Shown in pieces: positions 1,264 to 47,856 of a stretch of DNA of 64,000 nucleotides. The first letter of the stretch is position 1; each line of letters begins with the position of its first letter. The stretch lies in the NCBI RefSeq assembly GCF_017877055.1, contig NZ_JAGIPG010000001.1, positions 310,001 to 374,000 on the forward strand, read 5' to 3'. Position numbers and translations under genes: made by a program. The notes under the pieces were generated by a model, which saw only the letters and a program-made list of their open reading frames with translations, ran no database searches and was not told the origin of the DNA. This stretch comes from Neorhizobium galegae (GTDB lineage: Bacteria > Pseudomonadota > Alphaproteobacteria > Rhizobiales > Rhizobiaceae).

Positions 1264-2745
1264 ATGGGCGCAACCGCATTCGGTGGAGCCGGAGCGCAGG
1301 GCAGTGAAGGCGGCATTGCGGAGGAGAGCACCTTGTCCTCCGACCGCGTGAACCGTCTTCTCTCCAGCCTCGAAAACCGGCTGGATGCCGCCGCGATCCT
1401 AGCCGGCGATGCGGTTTCCGATGGTTATGCCGCCGATGCGACTGCTCGTGGCAGTCGACCAGCCGCCGTCCTGCGTCCGCGCAACACCGAAGACGTTTCC
1501 GCCATTCTCTCTGTTGCGAATGAACTCCGCCAGCCGATCGTCGTGCAAGGCGGCCGCACCGGGCTTTCCGGTTCCTCCCGGCCGGTCGAAGGCGAGGTCT
1601 CCATCTCGCTCGAACGGATGAATGGCATCGAGTCGATCGACGCGGCGGCCCAGACGATGATCGTCAAGGCGGGCACGCCGCTGCAGGTCGTCCAGCAGGC
1701 GGCGAGCGATGCGGGCCTGTTTTTCGGCGTCGATATTGGCGCCCGCGGCACCGCGACGGTTGGCGGCAATATTGCCACCAATGCCGGTGGTATCCGGGTT
1801 CTGCGCTATGGCATGTACCGGGCGCAGGTCATGGGGCTGGAAGCGGTGCTGCCGGATGGCACGATCCTCTCCTCGCTCAAGGGTCTGGCGAAGGACAATT
1901 CCGGCTATGACCTCAATCCGCTGTTCATCGGCACCGAAGGCACGATCGGCGTCATCACCCGCGCCTGCCTGAAGCTGCATCCGAAACCGCTGGTCGAGCG
2001 CAACGCCTTCGTGGCGCTGCCGTCGCTCAAAGCAGCGCAGGAACTGCTGGCGAAGCTCCGGGTCGAGCTGTCCGGTCTGCTCTCCGCCTTCGAGGCGATC
2101 TTTCCGAATATCTATGAAGGCACGGTCGATTATATGGGCATCCGTCCGCCGGTCGAAAAAGGGGCCGGCATGTATGCCATGGTCGAGATCCAGGGGCAGG
2201 CGCCGGATCAGGACAACGAGCGTTTCGAAGCGGCCCTGGCAGCCGCCTTGGAAGACGGTCTCGCGACCGATGTTGTGCTCTCCAATTCGATGCGCGAGTT
2301 CAACGGGCTCTGGGGCATTCGCGACGGCATCAACGACTATCTGTTCGGCAACGGGGTGACGATCGGGTTCGATATTTCCGTGCCTCTGTCCCGCATGCAG
2401 GAATTTCTCGACAAGGCGGCGCACGCCGTCGAGGAGATCGATCCGGAGGCGCGGACCTATATTTTCGGCCATCTGGGCGATGGCAATCTGCATTACTGCA
2501 TGTTCAGCAGCCAGGAGAAAAAGGTCGCCGAAGCGATCTTCTCGGGCATAAAGGCGGTAGGCGGCGGTGTTTCCGCCGAACACGGTATCGGCACGGACAA
2601 GGTGAAATACCTCAAATACGCCCGAAGCGAAGCCGAGATCGCCATGATGCGCCGGCTGAAAGCCGCGTTCGATCCGAACTACATTCTCAATCGCGGCCGG
2701 GTCTTCGAGGCGCCGGCCCCGGTGCTGCAGGCGGAGCGAGCCTAG
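1264..2745 (+). CDS. FAD-linked 2-hydroxyacid dehydrogenase (GlcD / D-lactate dehydrogenase family)
   Basis: A 493-residue flavoprotein. A PCMH-type FAD-binding domain fills the N-terminal half (GGRTGLSGSS near residue 97, TATVGGNIATNAGG near 162), and an FAD-oxidase C-terminal domain follows, with the metal/substrate motif GHLGDGNLHY near 401 and AEHGIGTDK near 437. The family oxidises D-2-hydroxy acids such as D-lactate, glycolate or 2-hydroxyglutarate to 2-oxo acids. The stop codon at 2743-2745 abuts the start of the indolepyruvate oxidoreductase, so the two are co-translated. The natural inference is that it supplies that enzyme with a 2-oxo acid from a hydroxy acid such as an aryl-lactate. 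The extra ~20 N-terminal residues are unusual, and a later start is possible. Confidence 0.87.
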   Translation: MGATAFGGAGAQGSEGGIAEESTLSSDRVNRLLSSLENRLDAAAILAGDAVSDGYAADATARGSRPAAVLRPRNTEDVSAILSVANELRQPIVVQGGRTGLSGSSRPVEGEVSISLERMNGIESIDAAAQTMIVKAGTPLQVVQQAASDAGLFFGVDIGARGTATVGGNIATNAGGIRVLRYGMYRAQVMGLEAVLPDGTILSSLKGLAKDNSGYDLNPLFIGTEGTIGVITRACLKLHPKPLVERNAFVALPSLKAAQELLAKLRVELSGLLSAFEAIFPNIYEGTVDYMGIRPPVEKGAGMYAMVEIQGQAPDQDNERFEAALAAALEDGLATDVVLSNSMREFNGLWGIRDGINDYLFGNGVTIGFDISVPLSRMQEFLDKAAHAVEEIDPEARTYIFGHLGDGNLHYCMFSSQEKKVAEAIFSGIKAVGGGVSAEHGIGTDKVKYLKYARSEAEIAMMRRLKAAFDPNYILNRGRVFEAPAPVLQAERA

Positions 2746-5700
2746 ATGTCTATCCATGCCGCGCAGGACACGAACCTCTTGAACAGCAAGGTCAGCCTCG
2801 ACGACCGCTACACTCTGGAAAAGGGGCGCATTCTGGTGTCGGGCACGCAGGCGCTGGTGCGGCTGCCGATGATCCAGCGGAGCCGAGATCTGGCGCGGGG
2901 GTTGAATACCGCCGGTTATGTGTCCGGTTATCGTGGTTCGCCGCTCGCCGGTTTCGACCGCGAGATGGGACGTGCGAAGAAATTTCTCGATGCGGCGCAT
3001 GTGAAATTCCATCCGGGCCTCAACGAGGACATGGCAGCCACCGCCGTCTGGGGCACGCAGCAGACCGGCATGTTCGATGGCGTGCGTTACGACGGCGTGT
3101 TCGGCATGTGGTACGGCAAGGGGCCGGGCGTCGACCGCAGCATGGACGTGATCCGCCATGCCAACGCGATCGGCACCAACCCGAACGGCGGCGTTCTGCT
3201 GCTGGTCGGCGACGATCACGGTGCCGTTTCCTCCACTCTGCCGCACCAGAGCGAGCACAACCTGATCTCGGCCATGGTGCCGCTTTTGTCACCCGCGGGC
3301 GTCGGCGAATATATCGAATACGGCCTGCTCGGTTTTGCGATGAGCCGTTATTCCGGCGCCTGGATCGGCTTCAAGTGCCAGACCGAGATCGTCGAATGTT
3401 CGGCGACGGTCGATCTCGATCCGGACAAGCCGCAGATCATTATCCCCGACGAGACTTTCGCGCCGGACGGCCTGTCGTTGCGCTGGCCGGACGGGCCGCA
3501 TGCGATGGAGCTCAGGCTCGAGCGCAAGATGCTCGCCGTGCAGGCCTTTGCCCGCGCCAACCGGATCGACCGCCCCATCTGGGGTGGTACGGGTCGCGCC
3601 CGGCTCGGGATCGTTTCGACCGGCAAATCCTGGCTCGATCTTCTCGGCGCCATGGCGCTGCTCGGCATCGACGAGGTCCGGGCCGCTGAACTCGGGATCG
3701 CGCTCTACAAGGTCGGTCTGGTCTGGCCGCTGGAGCCGCAGGGCATTGCGGATTTCGCATCGAGCGTGGACGAACTGCTCGTGGTCGAGGAAAAGCGCTC
3801 GATCCTCGAAGACCAGATCAAGGCCCAGCTCTTCAATCTCTCCGCCGACCGTCGCCCCCGCGTGTTCGGCAAGGCCGGCGAGAGTGGTGCGACGCTGCTG
3901 CAGGCGATCGGCGAGATCGGCACGCTGTCGGTCGCGAAAGCGATCCTCTCCCGGCTCGACAATCTCGATGAGGCGCTGCAGGCCAAGGCGCGTTTCATCG
4001 AGGAAATGTCGATCGCCATGGGCGTCGAGGCGACGGCGCTGAAGCGCGAGGCCTATTTCTGCTCCGGCTGTCCGCACAGCATATCGACCCGCCTGCCGGA
4101 GGGGAGCCGCGCCTCGACCGGTATCGGCTGCCATATGATGATCATCGGCAACGAGGACCGCAACACCTCGACCTTCACCCAGATGGGCGGCGAGGGTGGT
4201 GCCTGGATCGGCCTGTCGCCCTTCACCGACGAGAAGCATATCTTCGTCAACATGGGCGACGGCACGTATTTCCATTCGGGCCTGCTCGCCATCCGCGCCG
4301 GGATCGCGGCCAAGGTCAACGCCACCTACAAGATCCTCTATAACGATGCCGTCGCCATGACCGGCGGGCAGAAGCATGATGGCGATGTCACCGTACCGGG
4401 GATCGTCGGGCAGATGCTGGCCGAAGGTGCGGCGCGCGTCGTGGTGGTCGCCGAGCGGCCGGAGGTCTGGCAGGGCAATCTGCCGCGCGAAGTGTCCATC
4501 CATCATCGCGACGAGCTCGACGCGGTGCAGCGTGAGTTGCGCGATATTCCCGGCGTGACGGTGCTGGTCTACGATCAGGTCTGCGCCGCGGAAAAGCGCC
4601 GCCGGCGGAAGCGCGGCGCCTATCCGGTCTCGGACAAACGTGCCTTCATCAACGAACTGGTCTGCGAAGGCTGCGGCGACTGTTCCGCCGTCTCCAACTG
4701 CATTTCGATCGAGCCGCAGGAAACCGAATTTGGCCGCAAGCGGCGCATCAACCAGTCGAGCTGCAATACCGATCTGTCCTGCATCAAGGGCTTCTGTCCG
4801 AGCTTCGTCACCGTCGAGGGCGGCAGCATCCGCAAGCCGGCGGCAAAGTCGAAGTCGGTGAAGACGGGCGACCTGCCGCTGCCGGTGTTCACCGCGACCT
4901 TCGAGATGCCCTACAGCATGCTGCTCGCCGGCATCGGCGGCACGGGCGTCATCACCGTCAGCGCTATACTCGCGCAGGCGGCGCTTCTCGATGGGCTGGC
5001 TCTGGTCACGCTCGACCAGACCGGACTTGCCCAGAAGAACGGTTCGGTCGTCTCACATATCCGGCTGGCGAAGGATCCGATGCAGATCAATGCGGTGCGC
5101 GTCGGTCCCGGCGAGAGCGATCTCGTGCTTGGCTTCGATATCGTCGTGGCCGCCCAGAAGAACTCGCTCGCCTCGTTTGCGAAGAACAAGACGCGGGCCA
5201 TCATCGACGACCATTTCGCGCCGACCGCCTCCTTCGTGAAGGACACGACCATCGATTTCCGGCAGGAGGCGACGCTGAAATCGCTGCGCCGTGCCGCCGG
5301 CGACGATGCGGTCGAAACCGTTGCGGCAACCGATATGGCGACGGCGCTGCTTGGCGATGCGATCGCCTCCAACATGTTCCTGCTCGGCCATGCCTGGCAG
5401 CGTGGGCTGGTGCCGATCAGCCTCGCCGCGATCGACAAGGCGATCGAACTCAACGGCACGGGCATTACCATGAACCGCGCCGCCTTTGGGTGGGGCCGCC
5501 GTGCCGCCGTCGATCCGGAAGCCGTCGCCCATGCGGCTGGTCTGGCCAAGATCGAGCCGAAGGCCGAGACGCTGGAAGAGATCGTCGCCCGTCGAACGGC
5601 CTTCCTCACGGACTACCAGAATGCCGCCTATGCGGCGCGTTATGCCGGTCTCGTGGATGTCGCGAAATCGGCCGAGGCGCAGCTGCGCGGCATGAGCGGT

Positions 5701-40133: not shown

Positions 40134-41137
40134 CAGTGGTAGCCCTCATGTGGATCGACCTTGCCGCGGAACACCCAGTAGGCATAGCTCGTATAGGCAA
40201 GGATCAACGGCACCAGGATCAACGCCCCGACCAGCAGGAAACCGAGGCTTTCGTCGGGTGCCGCCGCATCCCAGATGGTCACCGATGTCGGTACGATATA
40301 AGGATAGAAGCTGATGCCGATGCCGGCGTAACCCAGCACGAAAAGCCCGAGTGCCGCGAGGAACGGTCGGCTGTCGCGGTTGTTCCTGAGACCCGTGAGC
40401 AGAAGCCAGAAGCAGCCAACGACCAACAGGGGCACGATGACGCTGAAGATCGCCGTCGGCCAGGAGAACCAGCGTTTCAGATAGAGCGGTTCGAGGAAGG
40501 GTGTCCAGAGGCTGAAGATGCCCATCGCGGCCAGAGTCGCGAGGGCGGCGATATAGGAGAGGCTGCGGGCCTTGTCGCGAAGGTCGCCCGTCGTCTTCAT
40601 CACCAGCCAGGTCGAGCCGAGCAGTGCGTAGCCGATGACGACCGCAAGGCCGGTGGCGATCGAGAACGGCGTCAGCCAGTCCCACCAGCCGCCGGAATAG
40701 GCGCGGTTTGCAACCGGAATGCCCTGCACCAGGGCGCCGAGCGCGATACCTTGCGCCAGCGCTGCCATGAACGAGCCGCCGGCAAAGGCCCAGTTCCAGA
40801 GATATTGCGCCCGGCCGGTGCGCCAGCGATATTCGAAGGCGACGCCTCGAAAGATCAGCCCGAGCAGCATGGCGATGATCGGCGCGTAGAGCGCGGGCAG
40901 GATGGTGGCATAAGCGAGCGGAAAGACAGCCATCAGGCCGCCGCCGCCGAGCACCAGCCAGGTTTCGTTGCCATCCCAGACCGGTGCGACGCTGTTCATC
41001 ATCACGTCGCGGTGGTGCTTTTCGGGGAATAGCGGGAAGAGAATGCCGACGCCGAGGTCGAAGCCGTCGAGGATCACATAGGCAAGCACCGCAAAGGCGA
41101 TGATGGCCGCCCAGACGAAGGGAAGGTCAATGACCAT
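40133..41137 (-). CDS. cydB: Cytochrome bd-type quinol oxidase subunit II
   Basis: A 334-residue membrane protein with about eight to nine helices. It opens with a helix containing AYVILDGFDLGVGILFPLF, the CydB signature, and has VWDGNETWLVLGGGGLMAVF, also invariant. It stabilises the three haems of CydA. The gene overlaps cydA by 11 bases and is followed by the DUF2474 gene. The operon has no cydC/cydD beside it. Confidence 0.94.
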   Translation of the reverse strand: MVIDLPFVWAAIIAFAVLAYVILDGFDLGVGILFPLFPEKHHRDVMMNSVAPVWDGNETWLVLGGGGLMAVFPLAYATILPALYAPIIAMLLGLIFRGVAFEYRWRTGRAQYLWNWAFAGGSFMAALAQGIALGALVQGIPVANRAYSGGWWDWLTPFSIATGLAVVIGYALLGSTWLVMKTTGDLRDKARSLSYIAALATLAAMGIFSLWTPFLEPLYLKRWFSWPTAIFSVIVPLLVVGCFWLLLTGLRNNRDSRPFLAALGLFVLGYAGIGISFYPYIVPTSVTIWDAAAPDESLGFLLVGALILVPLILAYTSYAYWVFRGKVDPHEGYH

Positions 41138-42545
41138 GACGGCCTCCTGCAGGGAGCGTTGCGATATGTGGGGCCGGCGTGATGCCGGCGGTTCGGATCG
41201 GGCCTTCGCCGAGATCGTCGCTGGGGTCGCGCGGCAGGCGGGACATCAGCCGCAGGATATAGAAGGTACCGGCGCCGAAGACGAGGAGATAGACGATGAT
41301 AAAGGCGATCAGTGACGAACCCACGGCAGCTGCTGCAATCGGCGAGACGGAGTCGGCGGTCAGCAGGTGGCCGTAGACGGTATAGGGCTGCCGGCCGACC
41401 TCGGTCGTGACCCAGCCGGCGAGCACGGCGACGAATCCCGCCGGGCCCATCACCATTGCCGCGCGGTGAAGCCATTCGGTCGTGTAGAGGCTGCCCTGCC
41501 ATCGACAGTACAGGCTCCAGAGACCCAAGCCCAGCATGGCGAAGCCGAGGCCGACCATGATGCGGAAGGACCAGAACACGACCGGAACCGGCGGCTGCAA
41601 TTCACGCGGCACGGTATCGAGGCCGTTGAGCGGCGCATCGAGGCTGTGCTTGAGGATCAGGCTCGAAAGCCGGGGAATTTCGATCGCGTAGTCGATCCGT
41701 TGCTCGGCCTGGTTCGGCAGCCCGAAGAGGATCAATGGCGCGCCGTCCGGATGGCTCTGGTAATGGCCTTCCATCGCCATGACCTTGACCGGCTGGTGTT
41801 CCAGCGTGTTGAGGCCGTGCTGGTCGCCCGCGAAGATCTGGATCGGAGCGACGAATGTCAGCATCCACATCGCCATCGAGAACATCGTGCCGGCCCGCAA
41901 GGGGGCGGTGCGGCGCAGGAGATGCAGGCCGCCGACGGCGCCGACCACGAGCGCGGTGGTCAGGTAGGCGGCAAGCACCATGTGGACAAGGCGATAGGGA
42001 AAGGACGGGTTGAAGATGACCGCCCACCAGTCGGCCGGGATGAACTGGCCCTTGTCGTTCATCGCAAACCCCTGCGGGGTCTGCATCCAGGAGTTGGCGG
42101 AGAGGATCCAGGTTGCCGAGATCAATGTGCCGACCGCGACCATCAGCGTCGCGAAGAAATGCAGGCCGGGGCCGACGCGGTTGCGGCCGAACAGCATGAT
42201 GCCGAGGAAACCTGCCTCGAGGAAAAAGGCCGAGAGCACTTCGTAACCCATGAGCGGACCGATGATCGGGCCGACCTTGTCGGAAAACACGCTCCAGTTC
42301 GTGCCGAACTGGTAGGACATGACGATACCGGAGACGACGCCCATGCCGAAGGCGAGCGCAAAAATCGTCTTCCAGAAGTCGAACAGCTCCAGATACACGG
42401 CCTTTTTCTTCCACAGCCAAAGAGCTTCCAGCACGGCGAGATAACTCGCCAGCCCGATCGAAAACGCGGGGAAAATAATGTGGAACGAAACCGTGAAGGC
42501 GAACTGCATGCGCGCCAGCAGCGTCGCGTCAAAGGCCTCGAACAT
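41127..42545 (-). CDS. cydA: Cytochrome bd-type quinol oxidase subunit I, short Q-loop (CioA-like)
   Basis: A 472-residue quinol-oxidising, oxygen-reducing subunit. A haem ligand is His22 in FTVSFHIIFPAFSIGL, and GRQPYTVYGHLLTADSVSP is the conserved C-terminal block. At 472 residues it is shorter than E. coli CydA (522), consistent with a short quinol loop as in the cyanide-insensitive CioA group. It acts in the inner membrane, reducing oxygen to water at low oxygen or under inhibitor stress. The upstream 474-base gap holds a stress-type promoter and a candidate small RNA on the same strand. Confidence 0.94.
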   Translation of the reverse strand: MFEAFDATLLARMQFAFTVSFHIIFPAFSIGLASYLAVLEALWLWKKKAVYLELFDFWKTIFALAFGMGVVSGIVMSYQFGTNWSVFSDKVGPIIGPLMGYEVLSAFFLEAGFLGIMLFGRNRVGPGLHFFATLMVAVGTLISATWILSANSWMQTPQGFAMNDKGQFIPADWWAVIFNPSFPYRLVHMVLAAYLTTALVVGAVGGLHLLRRTAPLRAGTMFSMAMWMLTFVAPIQIFAGDQHGLNTLEHQPVKVMAMEGHYQSHPDGAPLILFGLPNQAEQRIDYAIEIPRLSSLILKHSLDAPLNGLDTVPRELQPPVPVVFWSFRIMVGLGFAMLGLGLWSLYCRWQGSLYTTEWLHRAAMVMGPAGFVAVLAGWVTTEVGRQPYTVYGHLLTADSVSPIAAAAVGSSLIAFIIVYLLVFGAGTFYILRLMSRLPRDPSDDLGEGPIRTAGITPAPHIATLPAGGRHGH

Positions 42546-42682
42546 GGCATTATTCCTTTTCCGGCAGCGGCCAAAAGCCCATCGATCTCATCGGAAGACA
42601 ATCGGTTCGGGGCGTCAAGAGATCAATACGCGTGAATGCCGCGCGCCCCGATGCCGCAGACCTGCGTCGATCCGCAGCGGCA

Positions 42683-42716
42683 AAAGAAAAAGCGCTTCCC
42701 GGTGAGGGGAAGCGCT
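42683..42716 (-). terminator. Intrinsic terminator of the candidate small RNA
   Basis: AGCGCTTCCC at 42691-42700 and its exact complement at 42707-42716 form a 10-bp stem with a 6-base loop. On the minus strand the stem is followed by TTTTCTTTTG. This is a strong Rho-independent terminator for leftward transcription and would separate the small RNA from cydA. Confidence 0.8.
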
Positions 42717-42771
42717 AGTGGGGGAGGGTACTTATGACAATGTCGGCCGCGTGGAGGTCATGCGTCCGACC
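42683..42771 (-). ncRNA. Candidate EcfG-dependent small RNA with C-rich segment
   Basis: Minus-strand transcript of about 90 nt inferred from three things seen together: an EcfG-like promoter at 42779-42803, no convincing reading frame after it, and an intrinsic terminator at 42683-42716. Between them is an unpaired-looking C-rich stretch (ACCCTCCCCCAC), like the C-rich loops through which alphaproteobacterial sRNAs, including the stress sRNA GsrN of Caulobacter, bind G-rich leaders. The start site is estimated from the promoter and may be off by several bases. It lies 138 bases upstream of cydA on the same strand, so a leader with attenuation is the alternative. Together with the two promoters it accounts for the 474-base gap 42546-43019. 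Confidence 0.55.
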
Positions 42772-42778
42772 CGCCTTG

Positions 42779-42803
42779 AACCCATGACCGCGAGTTTTGT
42801 TCC
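42779..42803 (-). promoter_or_regulatory. EcfG-type promoter for the candidate small RNA
   Basis: On the minus strand, GGAAC (42803-42799), 16 bases, then GGTT (42782-42779). The Rhizobiales general-stress sigma factor recognises GGAAC-N16/17-CGTT, and here the -10 differs at its first base. The terminator about 65 bases further gives it a clear short transcription unit. Confidence 0.6.
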
Positions 42804-42900
42804 TCCTCTCGTGCGCTTTGGCGCGAAACCTCCGGTGGCTCCCGGTTCGACAGGCAGATACGGAAAGGAGAACCGCACCACGAGCAAGGCGGCAGGACAC

Positions 42901-42925
42901 GGAACCAAACCCCATCCTCACGGTT
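42901..42925 (+). promoter_or_regulatory. EcfG-type promoter for the phosphoribosyltransferase-like gene
   Basis: GGAAC at 42901-42905, 16 bases, GGTT at 42922-42925. It lies 94 bases before the start codon at 43020, giving a leader of about 85 bases. It points away from the small-RNA promoter about 100 bases to its left. Confidence 0.6.
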
Positions 42926-43019
42926 GTCGGACGTCCGGCTGGTGATATCATGCCATCGGGCTGGCAAAAGAGAACCAAGTGCGGTGGCAGACGCCATCGC
43001 ACCATCCTGGGAGGATGCT

Positions 43020-43703
43020 ATGTTCGGTCTGAGCCCGACCTTTATCGATCGCGAGGATGCCGGAAGGCAATTGGCGGAAGCCATGCAGGCGGCCATGCCG
43101 CCCAATCCGATCCTGATGGCGTTGCCGCGTGGCGGTGTGCCGGTGGCCTTCGAAGTCGCCCAACGGCTCGGCCTGCCGCTCGACCTCCTCATCGTCCGCA
43201 AGATCGGCGCGCCCGGTCATCCCGAATACGGCATCGGCGCTGTCGTCGATGGGCGAGAGCCGCACGTGATCGTCGATGAGGATGCCGCCCGCCGCTTCCA
43301 CGTGCCCCCCGGCTATCTTGCCGCCGAGCGCGACCACCAGCTTGCCGAAATCGAACGCCGCCATCGAATGTATTTCGGCGAGGACGAGCCGAGCGAGCAT
43401 GATCACACGGGCCGCGACGTCATTCTGATCGATGACGGTATTGCAAACGGCGTCTCGATCCGCGCGGGCATCCATGCGCTGAAAGACATGGGGGTTGCGT
43501 CGATCCGGATTGCGGTGCCGGTCGCGCCGCGTCACTTGCTGGAATCCCTGAAGGAAGAGGTGGACGATATCGTCTGCCTGTCGGCTCCGGAACGCCTGGA
43601 AGCGGTCAGCCTGCACTATGGCGACTTCAGGGAGACGACCGACCAGGACGTGGTGCGCCTTTTGAAGGAGGCTCATCGGCTCAGCCGGACGCTGAGCCAT
43701 TGA
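43020..43703 (+). CDS. Phosphoribosyltransferase-fold protein
   Basis: A 227-residue type I phosphoribosyltransferase-like protein. LMALPRGGVPVAFEVAQRLG and IVRKIGAPGHPEYGIGAVVDG match the family common beside stress genes. The PRPP signature is VILIDDGIANGVSI, where canonical members have DDGIATGAT: the Thr that helps bind the ribose 5-phosphate is Asn here, so the activity may be altered. ATG 43020 has GGGAGG 7-8 bases upstream. An EcfG-like promoter precedes it. The substrate is unknown. Confidence 0.83.
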   Translation: MFGLSPTFIDREDAGRQLAEAMQAAMPPNPILMALPRGGVPVAFEVAQRLGLPLDLLIVRKIGAPGHPEYGIGAVVDGREPHVIVDEDAARRFHVPPGYLAAERDHQLAEIERRHRMYFGEDEPSEHDHTGRDVILIDDGIANGVSIRAGIHALKDMGVASIRIAVPVAPRHLLESLKEEVDDIVCLSAPERLEAVSLHYGDFRETTDQDVVRLLKEAHRLSRTLSH

Positions 43704-43706
43704 GCC

Positions 43707-44486
43707 TCAGAGCTCGACCGTTACCAGAAGCGGCAAATGGTCGGAGGCCTGGCGGGAAAGCGGGGTCGATACGACCTGCGTCGCGATCGGAGTGACTTCT
43801 CTGGAGACGAACACGTGGTCGATCCTCAGAAGCGGCAGACGGGACGGGAAGGTGGCCTTGGGTTTCATCCCGCTCAGGAGCGACGCATCTGCCATCTGGT
43901 GCGCGACGGCCTTGTAGGTTGCGGTCAGCGGAATGGCGTTGAAATCGCCGATCAGGATTTTCGGCTTGCCCTGACAATCCGGTGCGCCCATCCATCTCTC
44001 TCCGAGAATCTCGCCGATCTGGCGCATCCGGTCGCCGCCCAGCAGGCCAAGATGGGTATTGAATACCTGCAGCTTGTGCTCGCCGACCTCGATTTCCACC
44101 CACAGGGCGCCGCGCTGTTCGCCATGCGAGGGCAGGCTCGCACCCTTGACCATTTTTGCCGGCAGGGCCGTCAGGATTGCATCGCCGTACTGCTCTTCGG
44201 CGACGTTGAGCGCTGCGTGGAAATGGAACTCCATCTGCAGAAGAGACGCGATCGCATGCGCCTGGTCGATCCCGCCGGTGCGGCTGCGGCCGACATCCAA
44301 TTCCTGCAATCCGATGATATCCGGTTCAACGGCGGCGATGACCTCGGCCACCCGGGCGGGGTCGAGCCGGCGATCGGTACCGATGCAGGTATGCACATTG
44401 TAGCTCAGGATTTTCAGGCGGTGCCTTGCGGGAGAGGGCCGTGCCGTGGATGGGCCGGCCCTGGATGGCGATGTCCGATCAGTCAT
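43707..44486 (-). CDS. Endonuclease/exonuclease/phosphatase family protein, YbhP-like
   Basis: A 259-residue metal-dependent phosphoesterase fold. Catalytic blocks in order: LKILSYNVHTC, IIGLQELDVGR (metal-binding Glu), FNTHLGLLG, KILIGDFNAIPL and SDHLPLLVTVEL (catalytic Asp-His). With the next two genes it matches the E. coli ybhP-ybhO(clsB)-ybhN set, so a role with membrane lipids is likely. The ATG at 44486 has no ribosome-binding site and sits just after a minus-strand EcfG-like motif, so the mRNA may be leaderless. The ~20 residue N-terminal extension is low-complexity. Confidence 0.87.
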   Translation of the reverse strand: MTDRTSPSRAGPSTARPSPARHRLKILSYNVHTCIGTDRRLDPARVAEVIAAVEPDIIGLQELDVGRSRTGGIDQAHAIASLLQMEFHFHAALNVAEEQYGDAILTALPAKMVKGASLPSHGEQRGALWVEIEVGEHKLQVFNTHLGLLGGDRMRQIGEILGERWMGAPDCQGKPKILIGDFNAIPLTATYKAVAHQMADASLLSGMKPKATFPSRLPLLRIDHVFVSREVTPIATQVVSTPLSRQASDHLPLLVTVEL

Positions 44487-44493
44487 GGAGCGG

Positions 44494-44518
44494 GGAACAC
44501 CTTGGTCCCGGTTTCGTT
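44494..44518 (+). promoter_or_regulatory. EcfG-type promoter, with an overlapping minus-strand copy
   Basis: GGAAC at 44494-44498, 16 bases, CGTT at 44515-44518: a full match to the EcfG consensus, 33 bases before the YbhN-like start. Because CGTT is followed by CC, the opposite strand reads GGAAC (44520-44516), 16 bases, TGTT (44499-44496), facing the YbhP-like gene. One near-palindromic element may therefore serve both divergent genes. Confidence 0.7.
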
Positions 44519-44551
44519 CCCATTGTTATACAGTCGTTTACGAGAGGAACC

Positions 44552-47520: not shown

Positions 47521-47545
47521 AACCGCCCGGCATGGCGATTGTTCC
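47521..47545 (-). promoter_or_regulatory. EcfG-type promoter for the small-protein operon
   Basis: On the minus strand, GGAAC (47545-47541), 16 bases, GGTT (47524-47521), placed between the small membrane protein gene at 47559 and the proline-rich protein start at 47494. Confidence 0.6.
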
Positions 47546-47831: not shown

Positions 47832-47856
47832 GGAACTTCGCATGCTTTCAAGGGTT
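47832..47856 (+). promoter_or_regulatory. EcfG-type promoter for the DUF892 gene
   Basis: GGAAC at 47832-47836, 16 bases, GGTT at 47853-47856, 64 bases before the start of the ferritin-like gene. The -10 differs from CGTT at the first base, as in several neighbours. Confidence 0.6.

Follow-up and report, generated by a model that had tools for sequence, protein, structure and literature searches.

A conserved candidate small RNA with an EcfG-type promoter and an anti-Shine-Dalgarno segment in Neorhizobium and close relatives

We analysed a stretch of 64,000 nucleotides of the Neorhizobium galegae genome (referred to as the window), in which the spacer between cydA and a divergent phosphoribosyltransferase-domain gene carries the elements of a predicted small RNA (sRNA) gene. 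These elements and the neighbouring genes are listed in Table 1. The oxidase encoded next to the predicted sRNA was named an alternative oxidase in the original prediction for this locus; it is instead a cytochrome bd oxidase (cydAB; PF01654 and PF02322).

Table 1. Positions in the window of the predicted sRNA, its parts and its neighbours
Feature	Position	Strand	Basis and remarks
Predicted sRNA, ~91 nt	42682..42772	-	Covariance model, covariation and fold; 5' end placed by the -10 box and 3' end by the T-run
5' hairpin, loop with ACCUCCAC (42758-42751)	42742..42770	-	Fold; 8 consensus pairs, 5 changed on both sides
Single-stranded segment GUCAUAAGUACCCUCCCCCAC, proposed pairing region (anti-Shine-Dalgarno CCUCCC and CAU)	42718..42738	-	Highly conserved stretch
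Intrinsic terminator, stem-loop 42716-42691 and T-run	42682..42716	-	10 consensus pairs, 4 changed on both sides
EcfG-type promoter GGAAC-N16-GGTT	42779..42803	-	Sequence; GGAAC kept in 37/37 members
Second EcfG-type site GGAAC-N16-GGTT	42901..42925	+	Faces the phosphoribosyltransferase gene, divergent to the sRNA
Phosphoribosyltransferase-domain gene	43020..43703	+	PF00156 on the longer ORF 42924-43703; start ATG 43020 by eye; frequent neighbour
Endonuclease/exonuclease/phosphatase-family gene	43707..44486	-	PF03372; synteny; frequent neighbour
cydA	41127..42545	-	PF01654; downstream neighbour in some genomes only

The EcfG-like promoter predicted for the minus strand was recovered as GGAAC-N16-GGTT at 42803-42779, with GGAAC at 42803-42799, a 16-nt spacer and GGTT at 42782-42779 as the -10 box. 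Compared with the EcfG1 motif of Rhizobium etli, given in the available part of its description as GGAAC-N16-CGTT (PMC3892343), it differs in the first base of the -10 box (GGTT versus CGTT). This base varied within the family: the -10 variants of the other members were TGTT, GGTT, CGTT, AGTT and, once, CATT, the first base being C in only some of them. Every one of the 37 members examined carried GGAAC, separated by 16 or 17 nt from the -10 box, which was CATT in one member and NGTT in the other 36. The mark of the EcfG regulon, a conserved upstream promoter of the GGAAC-N16/17-CGTT type, was thus present throughout these 37 members. The sRNA gene is very likely to be driven by EcfG.

Downstream of the promoter, the predicted RNA is composed, in this order, of the 5' hairpin, the unpaired GUCAUAAGUACCCUCCCCCAC and the terminator, and its calculated fold reached -32.7 kcal/mol (z = -3.6), with energies as low in 2 of 200 shuffles. 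The perfect 10-bp terminator stem followed by a T-run, as originally predicted, was identified as the stem-loop 42716-42691, which includes seven G-C pairs and a 6-nt loop and is followed by the T-run (TTTTCTTTT) with a tail to 42682. A terminator scan of the window alone detected four terminators against 2.5 expected in shuffles, which is not above chance; it is the conservation of this terminator that makes it significant. The predicted C-rich segment was also found, as ACCCTCCCCCAC at 42729-42718. The additional claim that no protein-coding frame lies in this region does not hold literally: a mechanical 96-aa minus-strand ORF (42715-43005) crosses it, for which no Pfam match above the cut-off was obtained. 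A 9-codon ATG frame inside the RNA was rejected, as its ATG was missing, by eye, in several relatives.

To describe the distribution of the RNA, DNA searches and covariance models were employed. DNA search gave a match in 9 of 60 genomes, including the genome of origin, and seven matches among 394 genomes of the family, two of which (L012 and L013) were dropped as homologues, being short partial matches in whose flanks the promoter-terminator layout was not seen. An exact pattern scan of a named genome collection returned 13 records, titled Neorhizobium, Pseudorhizobium, Rhizobium or Rhizobiales. Judging by these named matches, the genus concerned is Neorhizobium together with close relatives. 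The first covariance model, R1, was built from 11 sequences of the transcript only, excluding the promoter, and matched 35 of 57 genus genomes at E<=1e-3; among the matches, that in G034 (L095) was judged to be false, the locus containing neither the promoter nor the neighbours. At all 30 fetched loci, 19 of which were outside the training set of R1, GGAAC-N14..20-GTT begins 28-30 nt ahead of the R1 match.

The second model, R2, was built in the same manner from 29 sequences (transcript only, promoter excluded). At E<=1e-3 it matched 37 of the 57 genus genomes, including the 29 represented in its training set, and at E<=0.05 it matched 40. The eight matches outside the training set were L048, which had been kept out of R2 for an ambiguous base and in which the promoter is present, and seven newly fetched loci. 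GGAAC and a spacer of 16 nt were found at each of these seven held-out loci; the -10 box was CATT in L092 and NGTT in the remaining six. The distance from promoter to match was 11 nt in L093 and 56 nt in L094, versus the usual ~28 nt. For six weaker R2 matches (E 0.0015-0.04), the promoter was found in none, and one of them, L100, adjoins the neighbour gene. The neighbour gene was present in all 20 genus genomes without a clear R2 match, and R2 detected nothing within ~1.5 kb of it in 17 of these 20, so the RNA may be dispensable or may have moved in these genomes. Among the other three, L124 carries a diverged copy in which promoter, hairpin, CCCUCCCUC and terminator can all be recognized, while L108, at the same place as L100, retained a remnant without the promoter and L122 gave a 12-bit match only. 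The search of relatives with a covariance model, proposed together with the original prediction, revealed a covarying family in which an EcfG-type promoter is conserved outside the model. By this comparison, the promoter, the predicted 5' hairpin, the single-stranded C-rich segment and the terminator occur as a unit in the majority of the genomes of this genus of Rhizobiaceae.

The predicted structure was then assessed in the 29 members aligned to the model, with a mean pairwise identity of 0.69 and a minimum of 0.42. Standard pairs occupied 97.1% of the pair cells in this alignment, which was fitted to the structure under test, and so favours it, and which consists of related sequences. Double changes were observed in 9 of the 18 pairs, five in the 5' hairpin and four in the terminator. 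None of 500 shuffles reached the observed covariation on any of five measures, and sliding the pairing partners destroyed the pairing. The possibility that the arrangement arose by chance, or represents an inert, decaying spacer, would agree with the near-chance result of the terminator scan by itself, but we regard it as practically negligible in view of the covariation and the conservation across more than 35 genomes.

We also considered whether the plus strand encodes a short protein here, with GGGGAGGG-N5-ATG as its translation start and 17 codons in the window. Most members indeed have a good ribosome-binding site and ATG on the plus strand. The peptides, however, vary in frame and in length (7 to 159 aa) and have no common end; the start was not found in L047, L050, L056, L088 and L124, and the only one in L044 is that of the neighbour gene. 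The 17-codon peptide was therefore rejected as not conserved among members, and since covariation, T-run and promoter all indicate the minus strand, a plus-strand protein gene is highly improbable. At the sequence level, the features of a trans-acting sRNA with an intrinsic terminator were all detected, namely, its own promoter, its own terminator, the lack of a conserved ORF and covariation, and we are strongly confident that the minus-strand element is a real sRNA gene.

The genomic setting of the RNA was compared among 30 loci. At least one of the phosphoribosyltransferase, endonuclease/exonuclease/phosphatase and cydA genes was located beside the RNA, within 1.5 kb, in 29 of the 30 loci, and cydA was within this distance in 13. 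Both cydA and the endonuclease/exonuclease gene were within 2 kb in six of the seven held-out loci. The exceptions, L054 and L089, have a transporter permease gene nearby, accompanied in L089 by a DUF892 gene. The original prediction had placed the sRNA beside cydA, which is correct for the window, with a distance of ~140 bp, but synteny does not tie the RNA to cydA (13 of 30 loci). This bears on the proposal that the element is a cis-acting leader or attenuator of cydA and not an independent RNA, as might be suggested by the presence of cydA, in the same orientation, ~140 bp beyond the RNA in the window. In the 17 loci where no cydA was found within 1.5 kb, the promoter, the RNA and the terminator are nevertheless conserved, and a large downstream ORF with an HTH domain in L038 is on the opposite strand; such a leader is thus very improbable. 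With cydA near only 13 of the 30 loci, the RNA does not appear to be a cydA leader, and the EcfG-type sites at 42901-42925 and 44494-44520, together with the neighbouring genes, make the setting look like a stress-gene cluster.

Downstream of the sRNA in L038, a locus for which no cydA was detected, lies an ORF (1645-3087) with the HTH domain and a weak cupin match. A similar HTH-containing ORF was noticed by eye, without alignment, beyond cydAB in the window (~39.5-40.0 kb), as if cydAB had been inserted or lost between the sRNA and the HTH ORF.

The RNA was next compared with known families. For 14 homologous or candidate loci and the whole window, no Rfam match at the gathering threshold was obtained for the RNA; the identities offered (mmgR, ctRNA_p42d, ar14 and, on the other strand, CrfA and Chlorobi-1) were all below their gathering thresholds and were rejected. 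The RNA resembles mmgR / suhB (RF00519) in having a CCUCCC segment followed by a GC-rich terminator, and scored 21.3 bits against a gathering threshold of 41 for mmgR, of which this genome has three copies above threshold at other places (61.5, 51.7 and 48.2 bits). With ar14 / NfeR1 (RF02344; 11.0 bits against 58.8) it shares C-rich anti-Shine-Dalgarno motifs at unpaired positions. The two differ in architecture: ar14 is described, in the part of the report available, as three hairpins each with CCUCCUCCC (PMC10746234), whereas the present RNA has one hairpin, the terminator and one main CCUCCC. The same text attributes anti-Shine-Dalgarno motifs similar to those of NfeR1 to the rhizobial trans-acting sRNAs AbcR1 and AbcR2 (PMC10746234), to which our RNA may be likened by description; no AbcR-named family was among the Rfam matches of the RNA and the window. 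The sRNA family seems to be absent from Rfam 15. Within the titles and abstract openings of the literature on rhizobial, GsrN-type and EcfG-related sRNAs, we recognized no published description of the RNA. From these comparisons, the RNA very probably represents a new, so far unnamed sRNA family of a known kind.

The known RNAs closest in kind are GsrN of Caulobacter and ReC64 of R. etli. GsrN is reported to increase the expression of KatG, and its exposed C-rich 5' loop, through which it pairs, is predicted to contact a G-rich region in the katG leader; its homologs are typically near ecfG-nepR-phyR, with C. crescentus as the stated exception, and GsrN-type RNAs are predicted near the general stress response (GSR) locus in Rhizobiaceae (PMC5869019). 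A further mark of GsrN is its cleavage to a stable 5' isoform. ReC64 is reported as an 88-nt RNA, with an EcfG1-dependent promoter fusion, downstream of phyR-tcrY (PMC3892343, as far as available). Like these RNAs, the predicted sRNA is a stand-alone gene with an EcfG-type promoter and a similar size (~91 nt versus 88 nt for ReC64). In contrast to GsrN, with its C-rich part in the 5' loop according to the same partial source, the conserved C-rich part of our RNA is located 3' of the hairpin, between hairpin and terminator.

The GSR locus of the genome, consisting of nepR, an ecfG-type sigma factor gene, phyR and an HWE kinase gene, was identified at C1 461.7-464.8 kb. The distance between nepR (C1:462339) and the sRNA (C1:352687) is ~110 kb, and the sRNA thus does not lie next to ecfG-nepR-phyR, as GsrN homologs typically do. 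Beside the GSR locus, we detected a GGAAC-N16-CGTT site followed by another C-rich, GsrN/ReC64-like RNA candidate (L060 ~9063 to 8930, minus strand; G000 C1 ~465,000). It consists of a long hairpin, C-rich in its loop, and a further hairpin whose loop contains CCCCC; no Rfam match above the gathering score was found for this candidate. The likeness to GsrN proposed at the outset is therefore one of kind, in the EcfG-type promoter and the exposed C-rich segment, while by position the sRNA is not the GsrN counterpart. Given the separate C-rich candidate ~110 kb away, the sRNA is probably a second RNA of the GsrN/ReC64 kind, distinct from the candidate at the GSR locus.

Finally, we analysed the C-rich core as the putative pairing region. 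Of the 37 members examined, 35 contain CCUCCC, and 30 have a CAU located 4-8 nt upstream of the core (in L055, CAU was cut off by the slice and is present by eye). The predicted mean unpaired probability of the core in these 37 members was 0.83; it was below 0.5 in four (L030, L031, L037 and L038), and a fifth low value, in L055, came from a wrongly picked core. The hairpin-loop motif ACCUCCAC is kept in the window and close relatives and is lost in most of the diverged members. CCUCCC is an anti-Shine-Dalgarno sequence and CAU the complement of the start codon, and their combined complement, GGGAGG-N-AUG, is a typical translation start. The linker of 4-8 nt is close to the usual spacing between Shine-Dalgarno sequence and AUG.

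In the proposed model, PhyR would free EcfG from NepR, and RNA polymerase with EcfG would then synthesize the RNA of ~91 nt ending at the T-run. The exposed CCUCCC, with CAU a few bases upstream, could pair with the ribosome-binding sites of several mRNAs (GGGAGG with AUG at a fitting distance), and this pairing would lower the translation of those mRNAs during stress. In Sinorhizobium meliloti, the anti-Shine-Dalgarno seeds of NfeR1 silence ntrB at its translation start, according to the part of the report available (PMC10746234). Repression at ribosome-binding sites was judged the most likely mode of action, because the complement of the core resembles a translation start and because of this effect of NfeR1 on ntrB. 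Taken as a whole, the description of the element as a stand-alone, trans-acting, EcfG-dependent sRNA that blocks translation via its single-stranded anti-Shine-Dalgarno segment is likely to be correct; for the role as an anti-Shine-Dalgarno repressor, considered separately, we lean towards acceptance. A further reading is quite doubtful: the RNA would be a dedicated mimic of the complement of an entire translation start, would span both Shine-Dalgarno sequence and start codon in numerous mRNAs and would serve as a stress-induced brake on translation initiation. If it were true, the general stress response would possess a second riboregulatory arm alongside the GsrN-like RNA candidate at the GSR locus.

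Searches for targets were performed with the complement of the core. The pattern GGGRGGGTA-N1..8-ATG matched only the sRNA itself in its own genome and gave six matches in four genomes, four of them the sRNA; the 16-base complement with <=2 mismatches gave eight matches in six genomes, six of them the sRNA itself. A crude duplex ranking of 68 ORF starts from the window and the GSR locus, with uncertain start positions, produced no clear winner, and the adjacent phosphoribosyltransferase gene ranked 8th. The start of this gene paired more strongly than full shuffles (mean -16.3 versus -13.4, n=19); shuffles preserving the Shine-Dalgarno sequence and ATG paired as well (-16.0 versus -16.8; median fraction as low, 0.63) in a control limited to 15 of these 19 rows, each cut to 28 nt, and the gene was rejected as a target. 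That no start-region target stood out by complement patterns, duplex ranking or the adjacent gene would agree with another mode of action, in which the EcfG-dependent sRNA activates a stress mRNA through a G-rich leader, or titrates another sRNA or a protein. Activation has a precedent in GsrN, which raises KatG and for which 5' loop pairing with a G-rich region of the katG leader is predicted (PMC5869019). We consider this alternative unlikely, since the conserved core CCUCCC (35/37) is of the anti-Shine-Dalgarno type and is preceded at 4-8 nt by CAU (30/37), and prefer repression at ribosome-binding sites.

A set of 23 sRNAs with predicted EcfG-type promoters is listed for S. meliloti in the available part of PMC3616915, and among the sRNAs with promoters of this type met in the papers cited here, GsrN is the only one whose function is described. 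A second such candidate, conserved, structurally clear and set among genes with EcfG-type promoters, opens a direct way to study how protein synthesis might be lowered in the general stress response, beyond gene activation.

Outside the genus, R1 was applied to 247 family genomes and gave five matches at E<=1e-3, three within the genus and two in other genera (L057 and L058). The latter two scored 36 and 34 bits with R1 (E 6e-5 and 3e-4) and 35 and 32 bits with R2, and no GGAAC was found within 120 nt upstream of either. The true-looking member G017 also has 32 bits with R2. The model score alone separates uncleanly, and relatives and look-alikes are not told apart at 32-36 bits; membership was therefore decided by promoter and synteny. 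L057 and L058 were accordingly not counted as members; these RNA-like matches (L057 1508-1577 and L058 1501-1582) may be look-alikes, or relatives under another promoter. R2 gave two matches in 111 family genomes, both known genus members, and on 17 neighbour-gene loci from other genera a single match of 13 bits (E 0.21). As only 18 or 39 candidates per genome were scored in the family-wide searches, these counts do not prove absence outside the genus.

The window as a whole is enriched in EcfG-type sites: GGAAC-N16/17-BGTT gave 10 matches against 2.24 expected by shuffling, and none of 100 shuffles reached 10. The 10 matches correspond to eight places, two palindromic sites being scored once per strand. 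Two more EcfG-type sites near the cluster (47521-47545 and 47832-47856) form part of this excess, as does 42901-42925. One palindromic site (40360-40386) lies within the cydB coding region and is possibly due to chance. The other, at 44494-44520 (GGAAC...CGTTCC), is common to the divergent endonuclease/exonuclease/phosphatase and LPG-synthase-TM-like genes, and each of its -35 boxes overlaps the -10 box of the opposite promoter. This palindromic, shared arrangement at the endonuclease/exonuclease/phosphatase gene was observed in 12 of 18 loci (17 from other genera and G026) and in all 20 further genus loci.
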